A DNA stretch of 35,861 nt. It comes from a virus. The position numbers were made by a program, and so were the translations under genes. The DNA is taken from positions 1-35,861 of the IMG/VR virus record IMGVR_UViG_3300046169_000031, one strand, 5' to 3'. Within the stretch, counting starts at the first letter, position 1; every line of letters starts with the position of its first letter. The notes beneath the pieces were generated by a model that was not told the origin of the DNA, made no database searches, and worked only from the letters and a program-made list of their open reading frames with translations. Positions 2,030 through 31,446 of the stretch are shown here, piece by piece.

Positions 2030-2560
2030 TAGTAGAATATTATTCCGTTCATCTTACTAGCTATATCCGTATCAGGCATAGAGCTATCTCCATCTTTACC
2101 ATACAAAGGATAGTTATTTACTTGGTCTTGATGTGTAATGTAAGCAATCATATCGTCAAGCAAAACTTGTGCCTTTCTAAATGTATCACTTTTCATTTGA
2201 TTAAATTGCTCTACATTTGCAGGTGTACTAAAATCGGATGAGTTAACAACTAAACCTGCCGATGTTGTATTGTACTGAATCTCATTCATTACCTCAAATC
2301 TAACAAACCAACATAAAGCAGGTCTAAGGTAGTATTGTAAAAGCATTGAGTTGGCTGCCGTAAGAGTTCCTGTGCTATCGTTCTGTATCTTTAGCTCCTC
2401 ATACATATCCAAACCAAGCTCAGGCTTAATGTGTGCAAGTTCAGCAATTTCAAGGATAGCATCGCTAATCAAAGCTGTATCTGTTGCTTGATTAGTAAAC
2501 GCAGTAGATATAACCTCTGAAGGCTGTTACAAACTTATCGTATTGTCTTACATTAGCCAT
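2029..2560 (-). CDS. Head-tail adaptor (DUF6712-like), frame-disrupted
   Basis: Most of the protein reads as 147 codons below 2472 (ISDAILEIAELAHIKPELGL, then LLQYYLRPALCWFVRFEVMN), a pattern like the DUF6712 head-tail connector of Bacteroidota phages. No credible start precedes it in that frame. A good ATG at 2560, overlapping the portal stop by 8 nt, reads MANVRQYDKFVTAF and then hits a stop, while the other frame upstream supplies SEVISTAFTNQATDTAL. Skipping one base near 2515-2530 joins both into about 176 residues. The total length of 532 nt is 3n+1, as expected for one surplus base. Either an assembly indel or a real mutation explains it. Confidence 0.65.
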
Positions 2561-7727: not shown

Positions 7728-9958
7728 CTATCATTATTAAGGTTTTGACCTAAATCTGACATTTGATTAAGAACTTCTTGCCTTCCTGCTTTTTCTTTGT
7801 TAAAGTTTTGCATTTTTAAGTCAATCAACTTTTTTCTCAAAGCCATTCTAGTTTCGTAAGATAAAGAATCATCTTTCAACATAGCCTGTATCATTGTTGT
7901 TTGAAAGTCTGCGTGTTCTTTTTGTGCTTTTTCTATTGATAAGGTGTTTAAATCTAAGTCTTTAAATAACTGAACATAAAAAGCATCTACTTGAGTTTGT
8001 AGTATTGATAGCTCATCTAACACAGGCTCAGTTCCTGCATCATCATTGGCAGGGGTTCTTCCTTTTTTTAGTTCAGATAATTCCTGCTTCTTTTTCTCTT
8101 GGTCTATCAATATAGTGTTAATAGATGCTTCATCAAAACCCGCTTCTAGCAACAACTCTTTTAATCTTTTTTCTTCATCTAATAGTTTATTGCCTTCTAA
8201 CTTTAACTCAGTCATTTGACCTGTTAAGTTGTTAACTCTATTTTGTTGTTCAGCAAACTCTTTATTTCTGTTTGTTAGTTCTTGAGTTTCTTCAGCGACA
8301 TTCCCCTCCATATCGCCAAGAACTTGCATACCTCCACCTGCATTAATAGTTGACTTGGTTAAATCATCTGTTGTTTTACTCGCTTCGTTTAATGCTTGTT
8401 TTGCTGTGTTTGTTTTTTTGGCTAAATCATCTTGAGCAGAAGAATTAGATTTTAAATCTTTTTGTAGCTTTCTAAGTTGTCTAGCTAGTTTTAGAGCTTC
8501 TTTATCGGCTAACAATGCGTGTCTTTCAATAACCTCATCTAAAGCATCACTATTTAATTGCAAAGCTCCTGTTTCATCATTTATTCTAACAACACTATTT
8601 CCTAACTCATTTTGCAAATCAATCAAGATTGTTTCCATCTCAAGATGTTCTTTTCTTGATTTTTTTGTTTGCTGATTTAGCGTGTTGTATCTGTCTTTTA
8701 ATGTTGTTAAGTTCTCTGAAAGAACTCTTGATTCCTTTGCTGATGAAGCTATCTTATCCTCAAGACTATCAAATCCTTCTACTGACAAAGCTATATTATT
8801 AAATAATGTTGCTAAAGCATCGTAAGTGGATTGTAATGCAGGAGCAAACAAATCAGCTATAACAATTCTAAGACCGTCAAGTGCAGAGTTAAATCTTCTT
8901 AAAGCACCCTCAACATTATCACCAATAATATCAGCCATTTCCCCTGCTGCACCTGCTGAACCCCTATATGCTTCTGTTTGTTTTTCAATTTTGTCGATAT
9001 GTTCTATCATTGTAGATATTGCAGCAACCTGTCTTACATCTACAACTTCAAGCATCTTTTCTACATCAATACCTTCATCCCTCATTCTTCTAAACTCCTT
9101 AACCATATCCTCTCCTGAATTGACAGTAAAGCCAATAGACTTAGCTAAATCAGATGAAGGGTCACCAAGTTTTAGGAATATATTACGAAGCGATGTACCC
9201 GCAATAGATGCTTCAATACCCGCATCTGTAAGAACACCCATAATAGATGTAGTTTCTTCTAAGTCCATACCTAGCAGTTTCGCAACAGGAGAAACCTTTG
9301 TCATTGATGTTTGGAATTTCTCAAGAGTTAAGGCTGACTGAGTAAACGATGCAGCCATAACATCAGCTACTCTAGCACCTTCTGACGCATCTAAACCAAA
9401 ACCTCTAACCGTAGAACCAATAACTGTTGCGGTTCTCGCTAAGTCCTCGCCTGTTGCTGTTGCACCAAGTAAAGCTGCTTCTTGCACTTCCAAAACTTCT
9501 GATGCTGTAAAACCTAGCTTAGAAAAGTTAAGTTGTAATCCTGCAACCTGCTCTGCTGTAAAGAATGTAGAACGACCTAAGTCTTGTGCGGATTTATTTA
9601 GTTGCTCAAACTCCTCTTTAGTTGCACCTGATATAGCTTTAACTTTAGCCATCTCAAACTGATAACCTTTAAAAACCTTAAATCCTTCTTTAAGTTGTTG
9701 TACTACAAACTTAGAAGCCTGTCTAAATCCTACTAAAGCAATGGTAGCAGCACCAAATGCTTTTGTCATTTTACCAACAAACATTGTTGAGCCTTTAGCT
9801 GTATCTCCTATGCTTTTAGTAGAATCAGATGCTTTCTTTGTTTCTTTACCTAAAGCATCATACTTGCCGTTTAATTTACTTATCTCGGTATTTAACGATT
9901 TAATATCATCAAGTCCTTTTACTCTAATTTCATATACTGTTTGTTGCTTCTTCGCCAT
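7724..9958 (-). CDS. Tail tape measure protein (main part)
   Basis: The 744 residues set tail length and may pass through the membrane during DNA injection. The N-terminal 300 residues match the TP901/PhageMin_Tail core: GKMTKAFGAATIALVGFRQA, FEMAKVKAISGATKEEFEQL, DLGRSTFFTAEQVAGLQLNF and GIEASIAGTSLRNIFLKLGD. Residues 400-660 are long coiled coils rich in Lys/Glu/Leu. The start overlaps the gp10-like stop as TAATG. The C-terminal Gly-rich part lies in the next frame (see 7092-7727). The length implies a tail of over 100 nm by the usual 1.5 Angstrom per residue rule. Confidence 0.9.
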   Translation of the reverse strand: MAKKQQTVYEIRVKGLDDIKSLNTEISKLNGKYDALGKETKKASDSTKSIGDTAKGSTMFVGKMTKAFGAATIALVGFRQASKFVVQQLKEGFKVFKGYQFEMAKVKAISGATKEEFEQLNKSAQDLGRSTFFTAEQVAGLQLNFSKLGFTASEVLEVQEAALLGATATGEDLARTATVIGSTVRGFGLDASEGARVADVMAASFTQSALTLEKFQTSMTKVSPVAKLLGMDLEETTSIMGVLTDAGIEASIAGTSLRNIFLKLGDPSSDLAKSIGFTVNSGEDMVKEFRRMRDEGIDVEKMLEVVDVRQVAAISTMIEHIDKIEKQTEAYRGSAGAAGEMADIIGDNVEGALRRFNSALDGLRIVIADLFAPALQSTYDALATLFNNIALSVEGFDSLEDKIASSAKESRVLSENLTTLKDRYNTLNQQTKKSRKEHLEMETILIDLQNELGNSVVRINDETGALQLNSDALDEVIERHALLADKEALKLARQLRKLQKDLKSNSSAQDDLAKKTNTAKQALNEASKTTDDLTKSTINAGGGMQVLGDMEGNVAEETQELTNRNKEFAEQQNRVNNLTGQMTELKLEGNKLLDEEKRLKELLLEAGFDEASINTILIDQEKKKQELSELKKGRTPANDDAGTEPVLDELSILQTQVDAFYVQLFKDLDLNTLSIEKAQKEHADFQTTMIQAMLKDDSLSYETRMALRKKLIDLKMQNFNKEKAGRQEVLNQMSDLGQNLNNDR

Positions 9959-10476
9959 TATACTTGTTTTGGTAATTGTTTAAATATGTTATTTATATCT
10001 GTTGATATTGATTTATCAATGTCGTTAAGAAAGTGTCTTTCATTACTCCCTACTACTCTATTAATAAATCCTGTTCTATATGTATTATTAGAATACTCCT
10101 TGCTATTTCTTGTAGGAGTACCTTCTCTTGCTATTGCTGCTGCAATTAAATATGCTATTTGTAATCTTTCTTGTGTTCCGCTTGGAAACTTCTTACTCTT
10201 TCCATTCTTGTCCTTATCATCCATCCAATTCATTATCTCAGACACATCCCAATCAAAAGGTCTTTGACCTTCGTTGACTTCTCTTACATAGTCTGCTTTG
10301 GATTGAATTATTAGTTCGACATAGTCGCTACCCTCATCTAATGAGTAGTGCATAGTGTCGTGCATATGTCCTGATGCAATATGATTCTGATTAACAAGCT
10401 CTTGTTGTATTTTTTCTACAAACTTCTTGCCAACCTTATTGATTGCTCTGTCGAATGTCTTTAGTATATCTTTCAT
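9958..10476 (-). CDS. HK97 gp10-like tail completion protein
   Basis: The protein has 172 residues. Residues 25-70 (ELVNQNHIASGHMHDTMHYS, then YVELIIQSKADYVREVNEGQ) follow the HK97-gp10 pattern, in which a helix with a S/TG..L motif is followed by beta strands and a 'Y...v..GtrP' loop. RPFDWDVSEIMNWMDDKDKN and the RTGFINRVV segment are also typical. Proteins of this family sit at the head-tail junction or tail terminator. Here the gene lies just upstream of the tape measure, overlapping at both ends by TAATG-type junctions, which indicates tight translational coupling. Confidence 0.75.
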   Translation of the reverse strand: MKDILKTFDRAINKVGKKFVEKIQQELVNQNHIASGHMHDTMHYSLDEGSDYVELIIQSKADYVREVNEGQRPFDWDVSEIMNWMDDKDKNGKSKKFPSGTQERLQIAYLIAAAIAREGTPTRNSKEYSNNTYRTGFINRVVGSNERHFLNDIDKSISTDINNIFKQLPKQV

Positions 10477-11411
10477 TATCCTTTTGCCAATGATGCTTGT
10501 TTAATAATTGAGTTTTCTAAATCAACTAAATTAGTAGATATATAATGATTGTAAGCAGATATGTGATATAAAGAGCCGTTGTATGTATCAGATGTTAATC
10601 CACCTATTATTCCAAACTGATTAAAAACAAAGTCCGTTGTAGGTGTAGTTTCACTAGCCACCTGCACACCATTCTCTCTTATATATAAAGTAGTTCCGCT
10701 TCTTTGCAATGTTATCAATATCTTTTTGCTAGTGGGCTGCCAATATTCTGTTGATATGCCGACAGCAACACTACTTGATGATGAAAAGCTAAGTATGTAA
10801 GATTTATTTCCTGATTCTCCTATTGAAAAATACATATCGTTATCATCACTCTTACCTAAGAATCTATGTTTCTTATGAACATTTGGAACTAACGGTATTG
10901 GCTCTACATACATAAATATTGTAAAATCTCCTGTAAGCGTTACACCACTACTAAAAATAAAGTGGTCTGTGTTATCATAATTAAAATATGCAGGAGAAAC
11001 ACCACTAACACCATTGCCTTTAAGACCAACGTCAGGTCTAAATGATGGGTTGGCTTGAGTTAACTGATTGTTGCTAAAAGAAGCTAACCAAGTTTGTATA
11101 TTGTTTCCGCTAGTTACCTCAGCATAGCCTTTCTTATAGTCAAACACAAACTCAGGGCTTACAACTGTGGCAGTTTCACCAACTATCTCCTGCACCGTTG
11201 ATACTGCTTTTGTATTAGATGCAGCTTTTCTTTTTGATAATCTAGCTTCAGGTGTTAGGTAAACATTATTTTTTTTTGTTATCTGATTAACCTCTGTGGA
11301 ATCATAAACTATTGGCTGCAATACATCATCAATAGTAGCATACACCTTATCTTTCAGTGTATCTTGATTTATTAATCTAGGTCTATCTTTATCTCTTTTT
11401 ATACTTCTCAT
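10476..11411 (-). CDS. Virion protein with C-terminal LamG/concanavalin-like domain
   Basis: This 311-residue protein has a helical, basic N-terminal 90 residues that may anchor it to the tail. Residues 100-305 form a LamG-like jelly roll: FVFDYKKGYAEVTSGNNIQT, DHFIFSSGVTLTGDFTIFMY, then GTTLYIRENGVQVASETTP and FGIIGGLTSDTYNGSLYHIS. Such domains bind glycans and are common on phage surface proteins. It is coupled to the tail-tip gene upstream and the gp10-like gene downstream. Glycan binding on the host capsule is inferred; specificity cannot be told. Confidence 0.65.
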   Translation of the reverse strand: MRSIKRDKDRPRLINQDTLKDKVYATIDDVLQPIVYDSTEVNQITKKNNVYLTPEARLSKRKAASNTKAVSTVQEIVGETATVVSPEFVFDYKKGYAEVTSGNNIQTWLASFSNNQLTQANPSFRPDVGLKGNGVSGVSPAYFNYDNTDHFIFSSGVTLTGDFTIFMYVEPIPLVPNVHKKHRFLGKSDDNDMYFSIGESGNKSYILSFSSSSSVAVGISTEYWQPTSKKILITLQRSGTTLYIRENGVQVASETTPTTDFVFNQFGIIGGLTSDTYNGSLYHISAYNHYISTNLVDLENSIIKQASLAKG

Positions 11412-13954
11412 TACATATTAAGATTTTCAACATCTATATCAACTGTTGTGTCAACACCTGATTTACCAAGCAAGAAATACTCTTGCAACTCTACTTTAGT
11501 TGATTGCTTATCGTGTGGTTTAAAATCAATTATTTTATTTAATCTATAATAAGAACCATCTATAAATATTAACTTTCTAAAATCAAGTTTAGATATATCC
11601 AACTTACTCAAGTTTATATACAAAACTTTTACTCTAGGATTTTGTTTTAACTGAGCAATCATTTTGGAATAGTAATTGTAAAACAACCCCCTCAGTTTTT
11701 GTTGACTTGATGATATAACAGTATCGTGATTTATATCAGAGAAAGATAAATTGTAGTCAACATTTTCATATCCATTAGATATAACAACTTGCGAAAGATA
11801 ACTTGTTGCGGGTGCGTGATATGCAGAACCATTACCTCCATCATAGGCAAGACTTGATTGAAGGTTGTCAAAAGCAATAAATGATGCTTTATTCCAATCA
11901 AAATCAGAAGTTGAATTTCCTCCTGCTAAATTATCAGGGTCATAATATTGCCATTGCCTTTTACCATTAAAAGAAGAATAGTAACCACCATCTTTTAGTA
12001 ATATTCTTGCTCCTATCTCAAATTCCTTCTCAGGTCTTTCAATAGCATTACTCAAGGATAAATCGGTATCATCAGAGAAATACATTGGTATAAGCGGACT
12101 TCTTTCTATATGTTCAACATATATATAATTAGGTTCATACCAATTAAATGTAGGAGAAAAGTAGCTGTTTTCTACTTTGTACTCTCCTGTTTGAAATTTA
12201 CCACTTGTATCTGTTTCTTCGTAAGAACCCCAATCAACAGCATTTCTTTTATTGTATTTATCCAACAATCCATCTCCACTAGCATCTTTGTATTTAAATA
12301 TAAGTTTAGATTTTATATCAAATAAAAACTCATCCTTTATTGCCTTAGAGTAGTCAATCTTATCAGTCCAATTAACAGCGTTAGATATTCCTTCATAAAA
12401 ATGGTCGTAAGGTTCAATAAATACCGTTTTACTTATCGGGTCTGTTTCAAATTGAAGGTTGAACATTTGTGCTAATCCCTTAACGAAATCAGACTGCTTT
12501 CCCTTTGGAAGCATATTATGAATATTCTTTATTTCCTCACCATTAAAATAAGCTGAAGTTTGCTCTATTTGCAAATAACTTTGAGCCTTCGTTATAACTT
12601 TTAATTTAGGTCTTTCTGCTCCTGCTAGTGGTGTTTGATAATGAACAAAATCAACTTTTATAGCAAATTTATCATTTTGAGCCGCTTCAACAGGGTTTTC
12701 CGATTGAAAATTAAATTGATGCTCTCTTGTAGATGCGTTCACGTGGTTAATAAATGTTGCATCTATTTCACCTGTTAATACAACATCAAAAGAGTTTGTA
12801 TCATCATTAGCACCCGTAAATTTAATTATACTTGCTACGACCTTGTATGAAGTAAAACTTAAAGCTAAAGCACTAGCAAAAGAAGCTCCATCAGTTTCTA
12901 CCTCAACCGTAACAGAGCCTTTTATATTAAATAATCCGCTACCTTGTGAAGAAACAACTAATCCATTTTTAATTCCACCTGTATGCTCAGTTCCAAGTTG
13001 TGCGTTACCATAATCATCTGTATCTAATCCTGCTTGTGAAGGAGCATCATCTGTAAGAGTATCAGCAGAAACTATAAAAGGTAATGTAAAGTCACCACCT
13101 GTATATCCTAAGCTAAGTGTATAACTTTGATTGCCCAAACTTCTATTGTCAGTAACAGAAGTATTGACTGCTGTATCAAGCTCTACCAACACCTCATCTG
13201 CACTTTGTAAAACTTTACCGAAAGAAACATCAGTCACATCAGTTGGCTTCTTAAATATTAATGGCATTATCAGTTTCTTGAAAAAGTCGCTATTGCAAAA
13301 TGTTGAACTAACAGTATAACCCTGTGCTTGAAATATTTTATCCCAAACATTCTTTATATACACACAAGGAACAAAGTCGCTATCCAAAGTGCTATCGGTA
13401 GTGTTATCTCCTTCTCCAACCGTTAGTAAAGGATATACTAGCTTATCGTGATTTTTAACATAACTAGGATATGTTGTTCTAGGATTTTCAAAAACCCAAG
13501 ATGAACTAGAAATGTTTTCGTATGATGAATAATATGTTGAGCTAAATCTTAATTCATCAAGGTCTGCGTTTTTTATCTTGTCTGCCCAATCCATATTATC
13601 AGCTAAGAAAAGACATTCATACTCCAACACATCTGTATTTTTGTATATTTGACTTACTCTTAGCTTACCATTCATTATCGGCAAGTGGTCTGCATATATT
13701 GTAGATGGCAAATCTTTTAATACATTTTTGCTATCTATATTTCCATCTTTGTATATATGATTGAAAAGTTTGTTGTTGTTCCTTGTAGCAGGAACTTTGA
13801 AAGTTTTACTAAAGCTACCGCTACGAGAATTAAAATCTCTAATATCAAAGTTTTGATAATTAAGTGACAAAGGAAAGTCATCACTCGATGTAATATCAAG
13901 GTTACCTAATATGCTGTCAGTAAAATCTCTTAGCTCAACTCTTATTTCTGCCAT
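11411..13954 (-). CDS. Tail tip / baseplate-type protein
   Basis: This large protein (847 residues) begins with a conserved pattern, IRDFNSRSGSFSKTFKVPAT followed by NNNKLFNHIY, that I know from flavobacterial phage tail proteins. The middle (residues 250-450) is beta-rich, and the segment DFVKGLAQMFNLQFETDPIS plus KTVFIEPYDHFY (about 495-530) looks like the hub-type fold of distal tail proteins. The C-terminus (QSTKVELQEYFLLGKSGVDT) is also conserved-looking. It lies between the 433-aa tail protein and the LamG protein, each junction overlapping by 1-4 nt. A baseplate hub or tail-tip role is inferred from size, pattern and neighbours. Confidence 0.65.
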   Translation of the reverse strand: MAEIRVELRDFTDSILGNLDITSSDDFPLSLNYQNFDIRDFNSRSGSFSKTFKVPATRNNNKLFNHIYKDGNIDSKNVLKDLPSTIYADHLPIMNGKLRVSQIYKNTDVLEYECLFLADNMDWADKIKNADLDELRFSSTYYSSYENISSSSWVFENPRTTYPSYVKNHDKLVYPLLTVGEGDNTTDSTLDSDFVPCVYIKNVWDKIFQAQGYTVSSTFCNSDFFKKLIMPLIFKKPTDVTDVSFGKVLQSADEVLVELDTAVNTSVTDNRSLGNQSYTLSLGYTGGDFTLPFIVSADTLTDDAPSQAGLDTDDYGNAQLGTEHTGGIKNGLVVSSQGSGLFNIKGSVTVEVETDGASFASALALSFTSYKVVASIIKFTGANDDTNSFDVVLTGEIDATFINHVNASTREHQFNFQSENPVEAAQNDKFAIKVDFVHYQTPLAGAERPKLKVITKAQSYLQIEQTSAYFNGEEIKNIHNMLPKGKQSDFVKGLAQMFNLQFETDPISKTVFIEPYDHFYEGISNAVNWTDKIDYSKAIKDEFLFDIKSKLIFKYKDASGDGLLDKYNKRNAVDWGSYEETDTSGKFQTGEYKVENSYFSPTFNWYEPNYIYVEHIERSPLIPMYFSDDTDLSLSNAIERPEKEFEIGARILLKDGGYYSSFNGKRQWQYYDPDNLAGGNSTSDFDWNKASFIAFDNLQSSLAYDGGNGSAYHAPATSYLSQVVISNGYENVDYNLSFSDINHDTVISSSQQKLRGLFYNYYSKMIAQLKQNPRVKVLYINLSKLDISKLDFRKLIFIDGSYYRLNKIIDFKPHDKQSTKVELQEYFLLGKSGVDTTVDIDVENLNM

Positions 13955-15255
13955 TATTCTATTGTTCTTTTAGCTTTGCTTTCTATATAATTTAAAGTAC
14001 ATCTCTGTAAGTTCTCATTGTCAAATGTAGTGACACTAGCATCTTTCACAACAACAGGAACATAGTAGTTTCTATTGAGTGTAGAATACCAACCCTTCGA
14101 GTTAGGTATGTCTGTTTGATACTCCCTTACCACAATGTAGTCTATGTAAGTTTCTCCCGCTACATCATCGTGATTTATAAGTATTGTTGGAGATATGTAT
14201 TTAACACCATCATAGGCTGTTGATGCTGTATTTATGTTGTGTGATTCAGATGCTGCGGTTGTAGAGTGACCTGTAACATAACCTCTAAAAGTTTCCCATT
14301 CATCATTAGTTTGTTGGTCGTAATCCTCTAGTGTTATTTTATGGAAGTTGCCATATTGGTCAGAGCCATCTGTGGCTATCTTGGTTGTTTTGTTGGAAGC
14401 AAATCCTGTAAAACCTGCAATCTGAAAACCTGAATCACTAGCGTTACTTTTTATTCTAACTTCAAACTCATATATACTTTTAGGGTTGTACGGTATTCTT
14501 GAATCACTAACCAACCAAAGAGTATCGTTATCTGAACCACCGCTGCTAGTAGTTCCTTCATTACCTTTTCTTAGAGTTCTTGTTCCCGTTAAATGACCAT
14601 CAGCAGTTTCAAAAGCAGCATCACTTGTTATATTACCATCTTGTATATGATATTTATCGCTTATGCTTGTTACAGCGGAATAACCACTCCAATCTTCTCT
14701 AAACACTTCTTTACCTATCCAACCTTTCTCTATCCATACATTTGGTGAAGCTAACAAATCCTCAAACATATCTTGTTCTGCAATTCCATAAGGTCTTGAT
14801 ATTGCTGTTCCTTCCTTAACAGCTTTTACCTTTGACTTTCTAACAGATGGGTATTTGTCATCAGTATAACCCGCTACTCTAGGCACAACAGCACCATAAT
14901 TCGGGGTGCTTCCTGCAAAATGATAACCTTCATTATCACCTATCGTAGCATTTGTATTAGATGTGCTACTTCCTAACTGACCTCTAAACTCAGGATATAT
15001 GCTTTGCTCGTATGATTTAGAAGATATGTTTATTCCCTCTGTAAATGCACCATCAAAGGTGTAGCTATCAATACCGCCTAATCTATTTTGCCAATGGAAT
15101 CTAACTCCATTAACTCTTTCTCTTGTGTGGTCAATGTAGTAAGTTACCTTTTCTCCTATCTTATCTGAAGGAGAGCCTGTGTCATCTGTTTGAACGGTAT
15201 AATATGATACATTTGAGAAGTCAGTTAAAGGTTCATCCGTTATTCCATTGAGCAT
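13954..15255 (-). CDS. Tail-associated protein, C-terminal portion
   Basis: The frame gives 433 residues from ATG 15255. Early residues (GVRFHWQNRLGGIDSYTFDG, about 50-69) match the 'W.NrlGg.dsytF' pattern of tail proteins in Bacteroidota phages, and the end (NYYVPVVVKDASVTTFDNEN, then RCTLNYIESKAKRTIE) resembles their C-terminus. A carbohydrate-binding-like segment lies at 180-390 (FREDWSGYSAVTSISDKYHI). The preceding frame (15233-15811) supplies the typical upstream half, so this and the two pieces before it may be one protein interrupted by indels. Its own ATG overlaps the upstream stop by 23 nt, which also permits a separate gene. Confidence 0.6.
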   Translation of the reverse strand: MLNGITDEPLTDFSNVSYYTVQTDDTGSPSDKIGEKVTYYIDHTRERVNGVRFHWQNRLGGIDSYTFDGAFTEGINISSKSYEQSIYPEFRGQLGSSTSNTNATIGDNEGYHFAGSTPNYGAVVPRVAGYTDDKYPSVRKSKVKAVKEGTAISRPYGIAEQDMFEDLLASPNVWIEKGWIGKEVFREDWSGYSAVTSISDKYHIQDGNITSDAAFETADGHLTGTRTLRKGNEGTTSSGGSDNDTLWLVSDSRIPYNPKSIYEFEVRIKSNASDSGFQIAGFTGFASNKTTKIATDGSDQYGNFHKITLEDYDQQTNDEWETFRGYVTGHSTTAASESHNINTASTAYDGVKYISPTILINHDDVAGETYIDYIVVREYQTDIPNSKGWYSTLNRNYYVPVVVKDASVTTFDNENLQRCTLNYIESKAKRTIE

Positions 15256-18708: not shown

Positions 18709-20136
18709 TTACCCAAAAAATACTATTTTCTTGCCGTTAAAGTGTCTATTTAATGCCATTACAAGGCAATCTACCATATCATCGTGCTTTGCAGCAGGAA
18801 ATGTTTGGCATTGCATAAGGAATTCTTCGTTCCAATGACCTCTTAGTAGTGAAACTCTTCCTGTTTCTATACTAGCACTAATGTCCTGCACTCTAGCCAC
18901 CTTGTCTTTGGTAGGCGGCTTATCTTCTTTTATATTAAGTCCTGTTTCTCTAACTAGAGTCTGCACAATGGATTTACCGCTTGCTTTAGGCTCTACAAAT
19001 ATTTTTGATTGTTTATTGTAGCCATTTTTGTTTACAAACTTAATAATATGCTTTACAAGGTCAGGAAACTCCAATCTTACGTTTTGAACTTCTCTAATTT
19101 GCCACTTACCCTCGCTAAATGTATATGCCATCAATGCTGAGGGGTCGTTCTTCTGACTTGCTGTGTATGCGGGGTCAATAACGAAGTTCACTACATCATC
19201 TACTTTCTCTTCGTCTATCTTAAACCAATTCTTCTGTATCATACCGCTATCGGCAGGTGTTGGTCGCTGTTGCAACTGTCCTGCATATCCATAACTACCT
19301 AAAGCTGACTTATAGTCATCTAGCACCTCTTGTGAGAATCTTTCTTTCCAAAATAAACCATCTTGATAGTTGTCGGCTAATGAATATGGCTTTAGGTCAC
19401 TAGAAAGTTCTGCGGGTATGCAGATATGATGATGTTTGTCGGGTGAGTTGTATAGAAGGTAACCGCTAAGGTCATCTTCGTGTACCCTTTGCATAATAAT
19501 TATTCTAACTCCCGTTGTTGGATTGTTAAGTCGTGAATACAATGTTGACTTATACCATTCGTTAGCATTATCTCTTTCTGTTTCGGATGCTGCATTTTTT
19601 GGTGATGTAGGGTCATCGACAAGAATTATATCTCCACCCTGCCCTGTTACCGAGCCTCCAACAGATGTTGCTCTTCTAACTCCTAGATGTGTGTTCTCGT
19701 ATCTAGCTTTTAGGTTTTGGTCTTTTTTAATTTGGAATGTTTCTGCCCAATGACTTTGAAACCACTCGCTATTTATTATATCCCTAGACTTGGTAGCGTG
19801 TTCTATACTAATCTCAGCCGAGTATGATGCTGTGATAAATCTCATTTTGGGATATACCGCCCAACACCAAGCGGGAAACATAACTGTCACAAGTAACGAC
19901 TTAGTGCTACGGAAGGGAATATTAATAATTATATCCTTACCCTTTCTTTCGCCTCTAATTATTCTTTCTGCTTCTCCTTGCAGAATATCGCAAAGGTATT
20001 TGTGGTGGAAGTTTGTGGATAAAGGAACTGAGGGTTCTGCTATTGGAAAGGCTTTGACAAAGAACTCATAGAATGATTTCTCGCAGATGGCTTTCTCCAT
20101 CGCCTTTAGCAGTTGTTCCTTTTTAGTCTTATCCAT
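18709..20136 (-). CDS. terL: Terminase large subunit (packaging ATPase-nuclease)
   Basis: This is a full-length 475-residue motor. The ATPase half has an unusual Walker A-like loop (INIPFRSTKSLLVTV, about 71-85), the Walker B strand GGDIILVDDPTSP (about 165-178) and the following motif RIIIMQRVHEDDLSGYLLY. The RNase H-like nuclease half shows VVNFVIDPAYTASQKNDPSA (metal Asp), IFVEPKASGKSIVQTLV and KHDDMVDCLVMALNRHF (last metal Asp). It belongs to the gp17-like family that cuts and packages concatemers. It overlaps terS by 8 nt. The Walker A lacks the classic GK(S/T) and has STKS instead, as in several related phage terminases. Confidence 0.92.
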   Translation of the reverse strand: MDKTKKEQLLKAMEKAICEKSFYEFFVKAFPIAEPSVPLSTNFHHKYLCDILQGEAERIIRGERKGKDIIINIPFRSTKSLLVTVMFPAWCWAVYPKMRFITASYSAEISIEHATKSRDIINSEWFQSHWAETFQIKKDQNLKARYENTHLGVRRATSVGGSVTGQGGDIILVDDPTSPKNAASETERDNANEWYKSTLYSRLNNPTTGVRIIIMQRVHEDDLSGYLLYNSPDKHHHICIPAELSSDLKPYSLADNYQDGLFWKERFSQEVLDDYKSALGSYGYAGQLQQRPTPADSGMIQKNWFKIDEEKVDDVVNFVIDPAYTASQKNDPSALMAYTFSEGKWQIREVQNVRLEFPDLVKHIIKFVNKNGYNKQSKIFVEPKASGKSIVQTLVRETGLNIKEDKPPTKDKVARVQDISASIETGRVSLLRGHWNEEFLMQCQTFPAAKHDDMVDCLVMALNRHFNGKKIVFFG

Positions 20137-20503
20137 CTAAATCTTCAAAGTCTGCATCTTCGGCTTCCATCTCAGCCATTCTTTGTTTGAGGTCATCAAC
20201 ACTCATACTATCATCAAGAGTTATCTCTATCTTAGTATTTCCGTTTGAACTTATCTCTGTCGATTGCAGTTTTGGTATGGCGTAGTTTAGAAGTTTAGCT
20301 ACCGCATTGATATATGCTTCAGGATTTTTTTTAGATAGCTTTTCCAATGCTTCTCTAATATTATCCTCCTGTCCTGCTAATGCTAGGGTAAGCACTTCTC
20401 TTGAGAACTTGGTAGTCTTGTTTAAAGCTCCTTTAGTTCTACCTCCTACCGTATTACCAACGGCAAAAGGTCTGCCTACAACCTTCTTCTTTTCTTCACT
20501 CAT
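20129..20503 (-). CDS. terS: Terminase small subunit (DUF5681-like N-terminus)
   Basis: The protein has 124 residues, directly upstream of and overlapping terL. Residues 9-31 (GRPFAVGNTVGGRTKGALNK) form the 'F..GN..GGR.KG..NK' motif of DUF5681-type small terminases and related DNA-binding proteins. Helices follow (EVLTLALAGQEDNIREALEK) and then an acidic tail (DADFEDLDG). It would recognise phage DNA and regulate TerL. The non-coding region before it carries an iteron/palindrome element (20541-20640) that could be a packaging or replication site. A TATGTTTG box with TTTG 20 nt upstream ends 4 nt before the ATG, so the mRNA may be leaderless. Confidence 0.8.
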   Translation of the reverse strand: MSEEKKKVVGRPFAVGNTVGGRTKGALNKTTKFSREVLTLALAGQEDNIREALEKLSKKNPEAYINAVAKLLNYAIPKLQSTEISSNGNTKIEITLDDSMSVDDLKQRMAEMEAEDADFEDLDG

Positions 20504-22278: not shown

Positions 22279-22497
22279 TTAAAAGTTTAAAGGGGTTAAA
22301 GATTCGATAAGCTTTTTCTCTAGTTCTTTAGATAGTTCTCTACCCTCTATATGGCTATCATCATCAGCCAACCAATACCAAAAAATACCATCGGCACTAT
22401 TATTATACATTAAGTTTTTTAAATAGTTAACGCCTTGAGAATCTGCCACCTTATCAAGTAGTTGTAAGTGATTAGGATTGAAAATGTAATTTGTCAT
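22279..22497 (-). CDS. Hypothetical early protein
   Basis: A 72-residue acidic protein (MTNYIFNPNHLQLLDKVADS, then DGIFWYWLADDDSHIEGREL) with no recognised family, signal or membrane helix. It is the first gene after a clear promoter (TATCTTTG at 22524-22531 with TTTG 21 nt upstream) and is followed after 4 nt by the 366-aa Cys-rich protein, so the two probably form a two-gene unit. The leader of about 27 nt from box to ATG is A-rich. Confidence 0.6.
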   Translation of the reverse strand: MTNYIFNPNHLQLLDKVADSQGVNYLKNLMYNNSADGIFWYWLADDDSHIEGRELSKELEKKLIESLTPLNF

Positions 22498-22523
22498 AAT
22501 TTTTTTTGTTTATTAATATGCTC

Positions 22524-22556
22524 CAAAGATACAAAAAAATTAATACATATAACAAA
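22524..22556 (-). promoter_or_regulatory. Promoter of the 72-aa/Cys-rich pair
   Basis: TATCTTTG (22524-22531) with TTTG (22553-22556) 21 nt upstream; 26 nt before ATG 22497. Confidence 0.7.
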
Positions 22557-22660
22557 AAGTTTACGAAATCAAAACTTTTTAATATGCAAGAAAAATACAA
22601 TAAAAAGTTATTAACAATGAAAATGTTGAAAACTCAAAAATGGGTGGTGCTAAAAAAAAG

Positions 22661-22766
22661 GCAGGTCGATGGCAGTTTCAGGGCAGTTTCACGGCAGACT
22701 CAGCAGGTCGGTGGCAGTTTCAATGGCTATAAAAAAAAGGAGGGCGGCAAAGCAGTTTCACCGACC
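22661..22766. repeat. GC-rich direct repeats with GCAGTTTCA core
   Basis: GCAGTTTCA occurs at 22672, 22683, 22714 and 22752. A 20-bp unit GCAGGTCGrTGGCAGTTTCA is repeated at 22661 and 22703. GGTCGGTG (22706-22713) pairs with CACCGACC (22759-22766). The block is far richer in GC than its surroundings and lies in the gap 22498-22784, which otherwise holds only a promoter. Confidence 0.7.
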
Positions 22767-22784
22767 CCCTAAACAAAAACATAA

Positions 22785-22997
22785 TTACAAATCTAATGAT
22801 TGTATGATTGTATCTTCTAGGTCAATGTAATCCCAATACAGGTCTGTTACATCAGTATCTCCGTTGAGTATAACCTTTTCTATTTCTAAATCTTCGTAGT
22901 TAGTATCTCTCTCTGAGTAGTAGTGGTAGAAAACCTCTAGCGTGTAGTTGTCTTGCTCTATGTAGTAAGAGTCTTTGATGCTTCTGTTTGATTTCAT
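22785..22997 (-). CDS. Small acidic early protein
   Basis: I start at ATG 22997 (MKSNRSIKDSYYIEQDNYTL) because an upstream in-frame codon at 23033 lies within the promoter. The product has 70 residues and is strongly acidic (DTNYEDLEIEKVILNGDTDV, then DLYWDYIDLEDTIIQSLDL). Very acidic small early proteins are often DNA mimics or host-factor inhibitors in phages, but no such family is recognised here. Its own promoter (TATCTTTG at 23023-23030, TTTG 20 nt upstream) gives a 26-nt leader. A GC-rich repeat cluster follows the stop codon. Confidence 0.55.
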   Translation of the reverse strand: MKSNRSIKDSYYIEQDNYTLEVFYHYYSERDTNYEDLEIEKVILNGDTDVTDLYWDYIDLEDTIIQSLDL

Positions 22998-23022
22998 AAT
23001 GTTTTTAGTTTTAAATTCACTA

Positions 23023-23054
23023 CAAAGATACAAACTTTTTTTTAGTTATGCAAA
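23023..23054 (-). promoter_or_regulatory. Promoter of the 70-aa acidic gene
   Basis: TATCTTTG (23023-23030) with TTTG (23051-23054) 20 nt upstream; 25 nt before ATG 22997, which decides that start over the codon at 23033. Confidence 0.7.
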
Positions 23055-23059
23055 CTTAT

Positions 23060-23257
23060 TTAACTATTATATGTTTTACCTTTGATAATCATATTGATAA
23101 TGGGCTGAGATACACCGTACTTCTTAGCGAGTTTGGTCTGACTAATACCACCACCCCTATACTCCCCCCGTATGGCCTCCGCCTCCTCTAGGGTAAACTT
23201 GCGCTTGGCATAGCCCCCACCTCTACGGTCTTTCCTGTCGTATATATTAACGCTCAT
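23060..23257 (-). CDS. Small HTH DNA-binding protein
   Basis: The 65-residue protein is basic at its N-terminus (MSVNIYDRKDRRGGGYAKRK) and then forms a helix-turn-helix: FTLEEAEAIRGEYRGGGISQ, TKLAKKYGVSQPIINMIIKG. The turn with Gly-Val-Ser and the final 'IikGktY' resemble the HTH found in NUMOD/HNH-associated modules and small phage regulators. It overlaps the DUF3310-like gene by 11 nt and ends the early operon that begins upstream at 25175 or earlier. Its stop lies right before the promoter of the 70-aa gene, so it could act on that promoter; this is inference. Confidence 0.65.
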   Translation of the reverse strand: MSVNIYDRKDRRGGGYAKRKFTLEEAEAIRGEYRGGGISQTKLAKKYGVSQPIINMIIKGKTYNS

Positions 23258-23579
23258 TCTCCAATCTTTCTATCTCAAACTTGAGATGATTAATAGTCTT
23301 TTTAATATCCTCGATATGCTTTGCCTTGTTATCCATACCCTGCTCTACCTTCTTACCTGCACGAAGAAGATATGTAACGGCAGTTCCAATGTTGTACGAT
23401 AAATTCCAATCCTCAACTACCTTACGTGCTTCATATCCATACACAGAGCCAATGTAATAGCTTGGTATGTTTCTCTCCTTAGCAGTTTCATTGAACAGCT
23501 TATTGTTTATTCTCTCTAATTCACTTTTGTTCGTGGTATCCATATTCCTTGTGTATTCGTAGTAGTATTTAGATTTCAT
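23247..23579 (-). CDS. DUF3310-like protein
   Basis: This is a 110-residue protein whose core (YYIGSVYGYEARKVVEDWNL, SYNIGTAVTYLLRAGKKVEQ, AKHIEDIKKTINHLKFEIER) matches the DUF3310 layout: a Y..g..yea..viedw.Ls...GtavkYl.Ragkk..... DikKa..yL..ei. DUF3310 includes the T7 gp1.7 nucleotide kinase group, so a role in nucleotide metabolism is possible but untested here. The start at 23579 overlaps the VRR-NUC stop by 11 nt. A second Met at residue 13 is an alternative start. Confidence 0.65.
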   Translation of the reverse strand: MKSKYYYEYTRNMDTTNKSELERINNKLFNETAKERNIPSYYIGSVYGYEARKVVEDWNLSYNIGTAVTYLLRAGKKVEQGMDNKAKHIEDIKKTINHLKFEIERLENER

Positions 23580-25238: not shown

Positions 25239-25634
25239 TTATTTTAATCTTTTTGCTTTACTGATAGTGTCGCCCATCATTTTCTGACTATCCCTATCTT
25301 TCTGATAGTCGGTTAGTTGCCGTTGTTGTCTTTTAAGGTTTGCCTTAGCTTTGTACTCCTTGAGCCATATATTCCAATTACGCACATTTACAAAGCCTCC
25401 ATTATCCGAATGCCTTATACCCTGCTCAAATGCAAACATTACCTCAGCCATCTCCATTGACGGGTAGAACCTCGACAGGTCATCTACTAGCAGTTTCGAC
25501 ATCATCACAATTTGCTCTGTATCGGGTTTCTGACCTAGCATCAGATAACACTTGCTTAGGGCATCTACACAATCTATGTTAAGAGATTCTCTATCGTTGG
25601 CAAATCTATACCATATTTGTCTAGTCTTATCCAT
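25239..25634 (-). CDS. Replication accessory protein, possibly helicase-loader-like
   Basis: The 131-residue protein is helical. DALSKCYLMLGQKPDTEQIV, SKLLVDDLSRFYPSMEMAEV and MFAFEQGIRHSDNGGFVNVR NWNIWLKEYKAK fit a pattern that I know from small proteins encoded next to replication initiators in Bacteroidota phages, where the family measures helicase-loader size. The C-terminus is basic. It follows the 72-aa gene with a 1-nt overlap, and the replication-initiator-like gene lies just upstream. The role is an inference from neighbourhood and pattern, not from a named catalytic motif. Confidence 0.5.
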   Translation of the reverse strand: MDKTRQIWYRFANDRESLNIDCVDALSKCYLMLGQKPDTEQIVMMSKLLVDDLSRFYPSMEMAEVMFAFEQGIRHSDNGGFVNVRNWNIWLKEYKAKANLKRQQRQLTDYQKDRDSQKMMGDTISKAKRLK

Positions 25635-25852
25635 TATAATACTATATTATTTCGTGTTTGCATTCTTCTCATATCAGCCTTATCGTGGCAGACAAATCCT
25701 GTAATCATATAGTGCATATTATACTCATTGATTTTTCTTGACCTTAAAGTTCCGTTGTTATTCATATCTTTAAGAAAATTTTTAGTATACTCACTAGCTC
25801 TACTTCTATTCTTATTGTATTCGTTCCAAAATTCTTCTGTGTAATTAGCCAT
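25634..25852 (-). CDS. Hypothetical early protein
   Basis: The 72 residues (MANYTEEFWNEYNKNRSRAS, then EYNMHYMITGFVCHDKADMR) are charged and helical with no family recognised. The start overlaps the end of the initiator-like gene by 8 nt and the stop overlaps the next gene by 1 nt, so it is translated as part of the replication operon. The 'MITGFVCHDKADMRRM' ending has a single Cys-His pair, too little for a metal site. No other feature stands out. Confidence 0.55.
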   Translation of the reverse strand: MANYTEEFWNEYNKNRSRASEYTKNFLKDMNNNGTLRSRKINEYNMHYMITGFVCHDKADMRRMQTRNNIVL

Positions 25853-26513
25853 TGTTGATTTGTGTTCTAGCTTGTTCCCAAGCGGTTAATACTTGTTTAG
25901 GTTGTGATACTTTTTGTTGTTGGGTAGTATTCTTTTCCCAAGTTCTTACAGATGCTTTCCAATCCTTCATTGCATTCTTACCTACTTTCCAACCGTTAGA
26001 AGAATAGTAGTCGTAAAACTTTTCAGCATCTACATCATTGTTCCTTTCATTGCAATAGTCAGCTACTTCTTCGATTGTTGGCTTTGCAAACCTCTTAACC
26101 TTAGCTTTAACTTTAACTATATCTTTATCCTTATCTTTATTATTAAGGGTACTTTGTACCCCTTGTGAACCCTTCAGATACCCTTCAAGATTATATTTAT
26201 CAAGTAATGCAATTACTGATTTATGCACATTAGAATTAGGATTCAATTCGCCATATTGAAAGTCAATAAATTCAGGAATAAACCACTTATCTCCATTGTC
26301 AAAGATAACTATCTTGTCAAGAAATGCCTGTGGCAACATATCGTATATTAGTTCTTCTCCTACTCTAATAGATGCCACCTCTATATCAACGTCCCATATT
26401 CCTGCGTGATTGCAGTCATCTAATATGTAGAACCATAGTAGCTTGTGTTGTGGCTTTAACTCCCTTAAAAAGCGTTTCTTCCACTTATCTGTATCTGTCA
26501 TTCGTTTTGCCAT
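25845..26513 (-). CDS. Replication initiator-like protein (O/DnaD type)
   Basis: The protein has 222 residues. The N-terminal 90 form a winged-helix-type domain: WKKRFLRELKPQHKLLWFYI, DDCNHAGIWDVDIEVASIRV, WFIPEFIDFQYGELNPNSNV, a pattern common in Bacteroidota phage replication proteins. Residues 108-138 are a charged linker (GSQGVQSTLNNKDKDKDIVK) whose DNA is an origin-like iteron element (26,095-26,186). The C-terminal domain (AEKFYDYYSSNGWKVGKNAM, DWKASVRTWEKN) is the small domain that such proteins share with DnaD/helicase-recruiting factors. In lambda the origin lies inside gene O in the same way. Its role in recruiting the host helicase is inferred. Confidence 0.7.
   Translation of the reverse strand: MAKRMTDTDKWKKRFLRELKPQHKLLWFYILDDCNHAGIWDVDIEVASIRVGEELIYDMLPQAFLDKIVIFDNGDKWFIPEFIDFQYGELNPNSNVHKSVIALLDKYNLEGYLKGSQGVQSTLNNKDKDKDIVKVKAKVKRFAKPTIEEVADYCNERNNDVDAEKFYDYYSSNGWKVGKNAMKDWKASVRTWEKNTTQQQKVSQPKQVLTAWEQARTQINNG
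26095..26186. repeat. Origin-like element B, inside the initiator-like gene
   Basis: CTTTAN tract (26103-26143), palindrome AGGGTA-ctttg-TACCCC (26146-26162), then ACCCCT/ACCCTT/ACCCTT starting at 26158, 26169 and 26180, exactly 11 bp apart. It encodes the charged linker of the replication protein, as the lambda origin lies inside gene O. Confidence 0.75.
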
Positions 26514-27140: not shown

Positions 27141-27452
27141 TTAAAAGGGTAAGTCTGATTCTTCTTTAACAGTATCAGCCTTCTCTGTCTTTGCACCACC
27201 GACATTGATTGCCCAAGCTAATATGTTGTTATAGTAGTTTCCTTCATACAGGCGACCTCTGATGTCAATCTTGCAAGTGACCTCAGTTCCTACCTCCATA
27301 CTGTCAATCTTTTCTATGTTGTCTTTAACGACCTCCATCTTGATTGACTGAGGGTATTCGCCTCCTGTGTTTACCACAAACTCTCTTTTTCTAAATCCGC
27401 TGTTGAAAGTTTTAGTTTCAAACTTTGCTTCTAAAGTTCCTTTAATTTCCAT
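27141..27452 (-). CDS. DUF3127-like single-stranded DNA-binding protein
   Basis: The 103 residues begin with the DUF3127 pattern: MEIKGTLEAKFETKTFNSGF, KREFVVNTGGEYPQSIKMEV, EVTCKIDIRGRLYEGNYYNN, an OB-fold-like beta barrel typical of Bacteroidota. The C-terminus is acidic and ends SDLPF, the same kind of tip as the DDIPF of bacterial SSB, which docks repair and replication partners. It probably coats single-stranded DNA at the phage fork. The start overlaps the DnaA-like gene by 11 nt, and the initiator-like gene lies downstream, consistent with a replication role. Confidence 0.75.
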   Translation of the reverse strand: MEIKGTLEAKFETKTFNSGFRKREFVVNTGGEYPQSIKMEVVKDNIEKIDSMEVGTEVTCKIDIRGRLYEGNYYNNILAWAINVGGAKTEKADTVKEESDLPF

Positions 27453-27870
27453 AATAGTTAAAATTGTTTTGATTACTAATTGCTGTTAATTCATTCTTTA
27501 TTTCAAATAACCTATCATCTATAATTATCTTATCTCTTAATAGGGAGTCCATTTCATCTTTTATATTAAGATATGTAATCTCGTCAAAAACCATATCCCT
27601 TACCTTGATGTACTTTCTTATCTCTGACTTGTCAAATGTTAAGAAAGATGCTAATTTCTTTTCGTGAAATATTACTGTTGCGTGGTCTTGATTAAACTTT
27701 CTGCCTATTGACTTATATGTTTGGTCAAAATGCTTCCTAGCCATATAGTAAAACATTCTTCTAGCACCTACAATCTCAGACCTCCTAGACCTAGAGTGTA
27801 GTTCTTTGTCTGTTATGTTGTAATACTTACAAACAGCTTTTTTTAAAACTTCTTCTCTATAACTTGTCAT
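27442..27870 (-). CDS. Stand-alone DnaA domain IV (DNA-binding) protein
   Basis: In this 142-residue protein, residues 6-75 match the C-terminal HTH domain of DnaA: VCKYYNITDKELHSRSRRSE, IVGARRMFYYMARKHFDQTY, KSIGRKFNQDHATVIFHEKK, including the 'DHaTVih' signature that contacts the DnaA box. The AAA+ ATPase and domains I-II are absent, and a coiled-coil-like tail (MDSLLRDKIIIDDRLFEIKN) follows. It could bind DnaA boxes to recruit or block host DnaA. It lies between an HTH protein and the SSB-like gene, overlapping both. Only one perfect DnaA box was noticed in the window (20014-20022). Confidence 0.82.
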   Translation of the reverse strand: MTSYREEVLKKAVCKYYNITDKELHSRSRRSEIVGARRMFYYMARKHFDQTYKSIGRKFNQDHATVIFHEKKLASFLTFDKSEIRKYIKVRDMVFDEITYLNIKDEMDSLLRDKIIIDDRLFEIKNELTAISNQNNFNYYGN

Positions 27871-28302: not shown

Positions 28303-28529
28303 CTCTTTGTGATTTTATCAAATTGTTCTCTAGGGTCTTTTGGTATGTAATCTTCCTTTAGCTTACCGATTAACTCGTATGCTTCTTGATAGGTTAAATG
28401 TAAAAGACCGTTCTCTATATCTCTAATGTTATCTTGTTCATAAGGAACGCTTGTTAGCAAACCCTCAATAACAGCTATCTGCGTGTTACTGATAGGTTCA
28501 CTAGCAAATATTTCATCTATCCAATCCAT
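28293..28529 (-). CDS. Hypothetical early protein
   Basis: This 78-residue protein (SNTQIAVIEGLLTSVPYEQD, GLLHLTYQEAYELIGKLKED, YIPKDPREQFDKITKRW) follows a 'T..Q...Ie.Ll....y......i.....Ls..eA..li..Lk....P.DPr.qF' pattern that I have seen in uncharacterised phage proteins next to recombination genes. It overlaps the SSAP-like gene stop by 1 nt. No catalytic motif is visible. Position suggests a partner of the annealing protein. Confidence 0.55.
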   Translation of the reverse strand: MDWIDEIFASEPISNTQIAVIEGLLTSVPYEQDNIRDIENGLLHLTYQEAYELIGKLKEDYIPKDPREQFDKITKRWQ

Positions 28530-28924
28530 TAGTCAGCCATTTCATCTTGACCATAAACTCCTTGCTCATAGAATCCTGTAAGCATTAGTACTGCTCTTGA
28601 CTTGGCTCTTTTTTCTGCCATAGCCACAGGAAACTTACCCGCAAGACCCATAGTGTTTTCTTTAGAACATTCGCCAAAAGATTCTACTCTGCGTTGATTC
28701 TCTGACATCTCTGCAACACATCTAAGTACAACCCACTCTCGCTCCATAATGATTGGCTCATAGGAAACTTTTATTCCTCTGTTACTGATAATCTTGTCAA
28801 TTCCTGTTCGTGTAATAATAACAAACCCTCGCTTGTCTTTATACACATCTTCTTGTACTAGACCGTTCTCTGTGAATAGTCTGCGTAAACTTTCTTTCTT
28901 AGTTTCTGTTTTAATTTCTGACAT
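28529..28924 (-). CDS. Candidate ssDNA-annealing / recombination protein
   Basis: The 131-residue protein reads ESLRRLFTENGLVQEDVYKD, FVIITRTGIDKIISNRGIKV and REWVVLRCVAEM, then GKFPVAMAEKRAKSRAVLML TGFYEQGVYG. The motif 'P.AmAEkRAksRavL.ltG' is the kind of helix shared by phage annealing proteins of the Erf/RecT/Rad52-like groups, which bind ssDNA for recombination. No partner exonuclease is seen, though a VRR-NUC nuclease is encoded downstream. It lies in the early operon right after the 75-aa gene. The role is an inference from one motif and position; it could be another ssDNA-binding protein. Confidence 0.5.
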   Translation of the reverse strand: MSEIKTETKKESLRRLFTENGLVQEDVYKDKRGFVIITRTGIDKIISNRGIKVSYEPIIMEREWVVLRCVAEMSENQRRVESFGECSKENTMGLAGKFPVAMAEKRAKSRAVLMLTGFYEQGVYGQDEMAD

Positions 28925-30576: not shown

Positions 30577-30667
30577 CTTAACTTTATCTTTATCTTTATC
30601 TATAGCTTTAGCTTTATTATATAGGGTATAAACTACCCTTTGTGAACCCTTTGGCAAGGGTTAAACT
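30577..30667. repeat. Origin-like element C, between DUF5675 and holin genes
   Basis: CTTTAT/CTTTAG tract (30580-30619), palindrome AGGGTA-taaac-TACCCT (30623-30639), ACCCTT at 30635 and 30646 (11 bp apart), then an inverted AAGGGT at 30656. It fills almost the whole gap between the two lysis genes. Confidence 0.75.
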
Positions 30668-31143
30668 TCCATTAAATCATTAATGTGTTTATATTCAATA
30701 ATTACTCTATGACCTAAATCAAGTTCATCAGCAACCATTTTGTAAAGTCTTTTGTATGCTTGTGTAGATTTACCTATAAATCCATCAGAAACTAAGTTGT
30801 TGTTTTCCTGCGAATCGCCAACGAGTAAACACCCGCTAGTATGTTCATCAGTATTACCGCAATGTATGAGAATATGCTCAAAGTTAGGAACATTAGTGAT
30901 ATGCAACATACCACGATGTAAATCGCCAAATCTTTCAGTATATCTGTTATGAAAGCCACCCTCTTTTCTATACTTTATTTCGTACACTCCATAAGGTATC
31001 ATTGTTTCGCCTTTGACCTTATCCTTCCTGTACTCATCTTCTAGTGTATAGCAAAGAAAGTCATATCCTGCAAACCCTTCATAGAACAACATACCATTAG
31101 TACTATCTAAGGCAAGGTTATATCGTAAGCACAGCAGTTTCAT
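30661..31143 (-). CDS. DUF5675 family protein, candidate lysis enzyme
   Basis: The 160 residues match DUF5675: TIPYG-like stretch MIPYGVYEIKYRKEGGFHNR, then GMLHITNVPNFEHILIHCGN, TDEHTSGCLLVGDSQENNNL. The 'ILIHcGNt..ht.GClLvG' block resembles the catalytic His/Cys layout of YkuD-type L,D-transpeptidases. Family members commonly sit beside holins in phages, as here, so a cell-wall role is a reasonable inference, though not proven. The start overlaps the Cys-rich gene stop as TGATG. There is no signal peptide, in line with holin-dependent release. Confidence 0.7.
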   Translation of the reverse strand: MKLLCLRYNLALDSTNGMLFYEGFAGYDFLCYTLEDEYRKDKVKGETMIPYGVYEIKYRKEGGFHNRYTERFGDLHRGMLHITNVPNFEHILIHCGNTDEHTSGCLLVGDSQENNNLVSDGFIGKSTQAYKRLYKMVADELDLGHRVIIEYKHINDLMEV

Positions 31144-31331
31144 CAGCTACCACAATTCTCGCAGTCCTCTTGATTATCAATGTCGCAGGTAGGTTGTTCT
31201 TGTTCTTCCATATCTTCTACCCAAGAATCAAAACCTATATGTTCAGCAGTTTCAGCAGTTTCAGCAGTTTCACAGGATTTACAAGATTCCCATTTAAAAC
31301 ATTTGCAGTATTCTTTATCTTCCTTGCCCAT
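31143..31331 (-). CDS. Cys-rich small protein with Glu-Thr-Ala repeat
   Basis: I start at ATG 31331 (MGKEDKEYCKCFKWESCKSC), overlapping the 43-aa gene, giving 62 residues. Seven Cys residues fall in two groups (positions 9, 11, 17, 20 and 49, 57, 60), suggesting a bound metal. Between them is ETAETAETAE, coded by three exact 9-bp tandem copies (31243-31272), a site prone to length change. It lies in the lysis block between the basic 43-aa protein and the DUF5675 gene. No family is recognised. Confidence 0.55.
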   Translation of the reverse strand: MGKEDKEYCKCFKWESCKSCETAETAETAEHIGFDSWVEDMEEQEQPTCDIDNQEDCENCGS

Positions 31332-31446
31332 TGTATTTCTTTTTATATTGTTTACCACTTTTTGTTCTGCTTTTTGTCTTAGCGTGTATTCCCTTTCTTT
31401 TTACCTTAGGAGATGCTCTAAATGTAAATGATATACCCTTAGCCAT
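31315..31446 (-). CDS. Conserved small basic phage protein (43 aa)
   Basis: ATG 31446 opens 43 residues: MAKGISFTFRASPKVKRKGI then HAKTKSRTKSGKQYKKKYNG QGR. The 'RKGIHAKTKsS..K.gk.Y.kkY.GQGr' end is a pattern that I know from small uncharacterised proteins of marine phages, so this is a real gene despite its length. It is strongly basic (net charge above +12), fitting binding to nucleic acid or anionic lipid. It overlaps the XhlA-like gene by 8 nt and the Cys-rich gene by 17 nt. Confidence 0.65.
   Translation of the reverse strand: MAKGISFTFRASPKVKRKGIHAKTKSRTKSGKQYKKKYNGQGR

Follow-up and report, generated by a model that had tools for sequence, protein, structure and literature searches.

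A polarised eight-base DNA word and its conserved intergenic array in a lineage of marine Bacteroidota phages

A GC-rich repeat array in a leftward gap

The window, that is, the whole stretch of DNA analysed, is an IMG/VR virus record of 35,861 bases with 35% GC. Between two of its leftward genes (22279-22497 and 22785-23033) lies a gap made up of an AT-rich spacer and a GC-rich island of short direct repeats, with the terminase genes on one side and the replication genes on the other.

18709-20136, minus strand: terminase large subunit (phrog_38, E 4.9e-100)
20129-20503, minus strand: probable terminase small subunit (from gene position)
22498-22650, no strand: AT-rich spacer of about 18-23% GC, left of the array
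22524-22555, minus strand: predicted Bacteroidota-type promoter, TTG - 21 nt - TATCTTTG, serving the leftward gene 22279-22497 (pattern match)
22661-22768, plus strand: GC-rich array with GCAGTTTCA starting at 22672, 22683, 22714 and 22752 (repeat search, motif counts), together with the degenerate relatives GCAGGTCGATG, GCAGACTCA and GCAGGTCGGTG
22672-22722, plus strand: three array copies past the terminator, probably not transcribed (repeat search, fold, promoter match)
22731-22770, minus strand: predicted intrinsic terminator of the leftward gene 22785-23033 (fold and pattern scan)
23060-23257, minus strand: 65-aa helix-turn-helix (HTH) protein, candidate reader of the array (Pfam HTH_3, E 9.9e-6)
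25845-26513, minus strand: replication initiator-like protein, with a DnaD-like C-terminal part common to sub-lineages and an N-terminal half that differs
27442-27870, minus strand: DnaA domain IV protein, the DnaA-box binding fold (PF08299, E 1.7e-19)
28529-28924, minus strand: probable Rad52-superfamily single-strand annealing protein (AlphaFold model, pLDDT 86)

Repeat search confirmed each of the elements that an earlier note on this DNA had described at 22661-22766. Besides the four GCAGTTTCA copies, these are the 20-mer GCAGGTCGATGGCAGTTTCA at 22661-22680, which recurs with 95% identity at 22703-22722, an 8-bp inverted pair (22706-22713 and 22759-22766), and A8 runs at 22652-22659 and 22731-22738. 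The note had also called the base composition unlike the rest of the genome, and the island does stand out at 54.6% GC, a value equalled or exceeded in just 0.13% of the 108-bp windows. The AT-rich spacer contains a DnaA-box-like TTATTAACA at about 22608, with TGTTGAAAA directly to its right.

The note had placed the gap between two divergently regulated early units, but the flanking units are co-directional, as every confident gene of the window lies on the minus strand. Read in that direction, the order is gene 22785-23033, its terminator, three array copies, AT-rich DNA, the promoter, and the next leftward gene. At 22731-22770 a GC-rich hairpin and a U-tract follow the gene, as in intrinsic terminators; the fold (22727-22772, minus strand) has an energy of -16.7 kcal/mol (z -2.98) and is followed by U8, which corresponds to the A8 run at 22731-22738. 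One array copy, GAAACTGC, falls within this hairpin, on the loop side. The promoter at 22524-22555 was located with the established Bacteroidota consensus. Most array copies lie between the predicted terminator and the next predicted promoter, and the array is probably mostly outside transcribed units. Because three of the four copies are found beyond the terminator and before the next promoter, a role at the DNA level is favoured over one in RNA. A small or structured RNA was also considered and rejected, since a search of the array with Rfam models gave no match up to E 1 and its folding on both strands was no better than that of shuffled sequence.

The octamer GCAGTTTC is the commonest 8-mer of the window, with 14 occurrences on the plus strand and none on the minus strand, and the island is its densest cluster. 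GCAGTTTCA occurs 12 times, always on the plus strand, against 0.29 expected from shuffles. The four copies noted previously in the island are thus real, but the eight others in the window and the one-strand polarity had been overlooked. Copies outside the island are in genes and, read on the minus strand, mostly encode Glu-Thr-Ala (E-T-A).

3073-3081, plus strand: dispersed copy in gene 2553-3845 (minus), encoding E-T-A
9274-9281, plus strand: dispersed octamer in gene 7724-9958 (minus), frame 2, encoding K-L
11170-11178, plus strand: dispersed copy in gene 10476-11411 (minus), encoding E-T-A
14603-14611, plus strand: dispersed copy in gene 13954-15255 (minus), encoding E-T-A
23482-23490, plus strand: dispersed copy in gene 23247-23579 (minus), encoding E-T-A
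25490-25497, plus strand: dispersed octamer in gene 25239-25634 (minus), frame 2, encoding K-L
31134-31142, plus strand: dispersed copy at the start of gene 30661-31143 (minus), reading K-L
31246-31272, plus strand: second cluster, three tandem GCAGTTTCA in gene 31143-31358 (minus), encoding ETAETAETA

Inside gene 31143-31358, the DNA word has apparently expanded into an array of its own. The number of tandem ETA units in this small protein varies between 2 and 5 among relatives.

Conservation of the array and selection on the word

A search with the pattern GGCAGTTTCANNGCAGTTTC matched 79 viral contigs, and two further scans added at least 95 more contigs of the lineage. This lineage of marine Bacteroidota phages has at least 92 distinct intergenic arrays of 3-7 copies each, and their position is syntenic, with the replication genes to one side and the terminase to the other. 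The shared gene order comprises the terminase with variable small genes, the array, a small gene, the 65-aa HTH gene, a nucleotide kinase-like gene, and the replication module. Spacings between copies in the relatives are mostly 11, then 12, 9, 17, and 13, and DNA of 18-26% GC flanks the arrays on one side, the same side as the AT-rich spacer of the window. The occurrence of the same array in more than 170 other contigs disposes of an assembly artefact, which the earlier note had named as the outcome that would overturn its observation. Its suggestion of a recently acquired segment is likewise contradicted by the presence of the array throughout the lineage, even in members with unalignable flanks. 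A DNA-level control or recognition site, which the note had also envisaged, fits the conservation of position and sequence across the lineage and the location mostly between terminator and promoter. Among the matches listed, contigs outside the lineage show just chance pairs or coding repeats that span open reading frames; five of these have dense copies, across which open frames of 86-912 aa run.

The polarity seen in the window extends to the relatives. Copies in the array orientation outnumber those in the opposite one by 197 to 2 in 20 lineage records, and by 465 to 11 in 95 additional lineage contigs among the matches listed. This is the strand bias expected of Chi, though it is confounded with gene strand: because all genes lie on one strand, genome polarity is inseparable from transcription polarity.

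Other sequence features accompany the arrays. Many relatives carry a G-rich tract, GGAGGGGAGGGGAGGGGAGG, a possible G-quadruplex, and others have CA/CG-alternating tracts, ACGCACATACACACGCATACACGCAC, at the same place; examples lie about 20-70 bases left of the first copy in contigs L002, L004, L006, L013, and L054. The next commonest GC-rich octamers in related viral contigs are AGGGGGTA, ATAGGGGG, and TAGGGGGT, read opposite to the array strand.

Shuffling codons with proteins and codon pools held fixed separated the contribution of the encoded proteins from that of the DNA word. The coding sequence of the window holds 10 copies against 1.9 expected, with a maximum of 5 in 300 shuffles. For 11 genomes, which are related and hence not independent but whose dispersed sites span more than 25 gene families, the count is 69 copies against 15.7 expected by synonymous-codon shuffle. 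The three most enriched of all octamers in these genomes are AAACTGCT, TGAAACTG, and GAAACTGC, i.e. the word and its overlapping neighbours. Within E-T-A, Glu is encoded by GAA in 100% of cases (67% overall) and Thr by ACT in 89% (40% overall), and GCA accounts for just 11% of Ala codons (46% overall). In the other frame, Leu is encoded by CTG at 17 of the 19 places where this completes the word, compared to 2% of Leu codons overall. Codon choice therefore agrees in two reading frames, which indicates selection on the nucleotide word itself, and an extended word close to TGAAACTGCY is kept at the nucleotide level. The codon shuffles and the two-frame codon choice rule out that the word simply follows from the encoded proteins or from codon usage. 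These phages thus carry an asymmetric short word in excess of composition and codon use, as Chi-bearing genomes do.

Relative to codon shuffles, the word is enriched about 4-fold whichever 6-kb bin is taken, and sixfold within the 6 kb that adjoin the array towards the replication genes. In raw counts, dispersed sites seemed to form a gradient with distance from the array, but this was discarded because the codon-shuffle expectation explains most of it. The octamer codon-shuffle test gave no clear enrichment of the word in six cultured flavobacterial phages.

Hosts and candidate readers

A Chi word is expected to be common in the genome of its host. The density in the window is about 335/Mb, as compared to at most about 100/Mb for the octamer in 196 Flavobacteriales, at most about 40/Mb for TGAAACTGC in 395 Bacteroidota, and at most about 23/Mb for TGAAACTGCY in 396 Flavobacteriales. 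These low densities rule out, for the sampled genomes, a general Bacteroidota genome word, and codon-shuffle tests on two genomes revealed nothing special for it. A search for the host through TerL in 396 genomes yielded best matches of 53% and 40% identity with no word nearby. Similar DNA was not found in plasmids, and cultured phages gave no more than two 29-base matches at chance level. This leaves two options, a host group that has escaped sampling or a phage-encoded reader of the word.

Across 84,980 host genomes, the pattern GGCAGTTTCANNGCAGTTTC was found at 37 loci, mostly in alphaproteobacterial coding sequence. The exception is an intergenic AAGGCAGTTTCAAGGCAGTTTCAAGGCAGTCTGATGCC located some 250 bases from one end of L098 (Flavobacterium sp. 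CYK-55); it closely resembles the phage arrays, adjoins other short tandem repeats and has no phage genes nearby. Two further candidates were dismissed. Genome G230 has core genes with E-T-A, and a one-strand octamer cluster on the Flavobacteriales chromosome G013 belongs to a family of repeated coiled-coil-type genes. The latter region (C1 1727796-1749436) encodes paralogous Ala/Glu-rich repeat proteins (APDGIKASETAIK...) that mimic a polarised octamer cluster.

As for enzymes that could read such a word, 60 Flavobacteriales genomes were searched as candidate hosts: 56 match an AddAB-type nuclease domain, which mostly sits in long reading frames (about 900-960 aa) that often have a ~1050-aa partner close by, and RecC was found in none. 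On the phage side, the 65-aa HTH gene is no more than about 1 kb from the array in 11/11 genomes, and a DUF3127/SSB-like protein is encoded in addition to the DnaA domain IV protein. Sub-lineages differ by an exchange of the N-terminal half of the initiator-like protein, with no change in the word; the two versions look unrelated (MAKRMTDTDKWKKRF... and MKEQPNYYAIISAEVRYD...), and comparison of the window with the relatives G199, G200, and G203 reveals a clean domain swap with the same C-terminal part.

The 131-aa protein encoded at 28529-28924 is present in 11/11 genomes and has no Pfam or PHROG match. The best structural matches of its AlphaFold model are RAD52, Mgm101, Sak of phage 80a, and Red-beta of lambda, at Z-scores of 5.5-7.7 that alone are not decisive. 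It is probably a single-strand annealing protein and likely represents a new sequence family of such proteins in phages.

A Chi-like reading and its alternatives

That this lineage carries a polarised, selected DNA word with an array is a solid result. What the word does is best, if tentatively, read as a Chi-like polarised signal for a directional DNA enzyme. The likeness rests on the enrichment on one strand throughout the genome and on the dense array between the replication genes and the terminase. Bobay et al. reported that Chi is over-represented in lambdoid phages lacking RecBCD inhibitors, including those that have a recombinase, that the sites are concentrated between the replication genes and the terminase, and that for recombinase-bearing phages they may protect free ends near the packaging site (PMC3784561). 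The sites described here are concentrated in the same region, and the probable annealing protein counts in favour of the Chi-like reading because recombinase-bearing lambdoid phages that lack a RecBCD inhibitor over-represent Chi (PMC3784561). As in the RecBCD-dependent lambdoid, P1-like, and T5-like phages (PMC3784561), the signal is a short, asymmetric, over-represented octamer, but it is GAAACTGC rather than GCTGGTGG, 3-7 of its copies stand in tandem within a spacer, and no sampled host genome is enriched in it. Chi words are known for few species, with no Bacteroidota among them (PMC8022716).

The lineage maintains the word, read as 5'-(T)GAAACTGC(Y)-3' along the gene strand and as GCAGTTTC along the plus strand, as an intergenic array of 3-7 copies with scattered genic copies. 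Under the Chi-like reading, a helicase-nuclease entering at a DNA end would meet it in one orientation only and would there switch from degradation to recombination. Supposing that GAAACTGC is the strand read and that E. coli Chi provides the geometry, the enzyme would enter from the terminase side and head towards the replication genes. Given this assumed entry, the array would guard ends arising at packaging or during concatemer formation. Both the directional nature of the reading enzyme and its identity, as the AddAB of the host or a phage protein, are inferred.

Next in rank comes a lineage-specific self-DNA signal that is not Chi, with a phage-encoded reader (the HTH, DnaA domain IV, annealing, packaging, or a replication protein) for which the array would be the loading or nucleation site and the scattered copies secondary sites. 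Among the matches listed, word and arrays are confined to the lineage, no sampled host is enriched, and the HTH gene keeps close to the array in all 11 genomes. The HTH and DnaA domain IV proteins nevertheless diverge strongly between sub-lineages with the word remaining letter-perfect, and an ordinary duplex binder alone needs no single genome-wide orientation, so that we regard this reading as somewhat unlikely. We give still less credence to a replication origin, with the array as initiator iterons beside an AT-rich unwinding region and DnaA boxes. The DNA of 18-26% GC adjoining the arrays, the phage-encoded DnaA domain IV and initiator-like proteins 2-4 kb away, and, in 5/11 genomes, boxes of the TTATTAACA type at 60-120 bp from the array (5 boxes near the array against 0.2 expected) speak for it, but three of the five box-bearing genomes are closely related, and the other six have no boxes near the array. 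Iteron-type origins of phages and plasmids similarly have direct repeats by AT-rich DNA near replication genes, some with DnaA-box-like sites, whereas here the unit is short, the spacing irregular (9, 11, 12, 13, 17), the word constant despite the change in the initiator N-terminus, and the enrichment (about 4-fold over codon shuffle) spread over the whole coding genome rather than confined to an origin. The replication control site proposed earlier is a weaker possibility, given this enrichment and the initiator exchange.

A word acting in RNA, as UGAAACUGCY on the sense strand, in antitermination, processing, or RNA binding, would account for copies that are always in the sense of transcription and for the one within the terminator hairpin; with most of the array between terminator and next promoter, no Rfam match, and folding of the array strand not above shuffles, we consider it improbable. 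Slightly less probable again is that the array serves the leftward promoter (22524-22555) as a set of upstream activator or operator sites. Of the 92 arrays among the matches listed, 53 have a TTG/TAnnTTTG promoter on the same side at a distance of up to 400 bp, but the spacing is not tied to the helical repeat, and the scattered polarised genic copies and the rare CTG codon choice would be left unexplained. Phage pac and cosB sites, arrays bound by the small terminase, resemble the array as repeat clusters on the terminase side of the genome; here, about 2.2 kb of variable genes separate it from the small terminase gene, and the word is genome-wide. The EcoP15I sites of T7 are all on one strand, and restriction escape predicts strand bias without enrichment or arrays, whereas the present word is strongly enriched and forms arrays.

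The Chi-like reading, which we prefer while holding it open to doubt, may take two forms. The word could be a one-strand, genome-wide mark of self DNA with a loading array and a phage-encoded directional reader, a viral counterpart of Chi, or GAAACTGC could be the first Chi word of an AddAB from unsampled marine Bacteroidota. If this is true, phage genomes would reveal which word a major marine group uses for recombination or protection, or else its phage-made counterpart, and a single eight-letter word with a ready array would offer a direct test of how DNA ends are protected and concatemers made in these phages.
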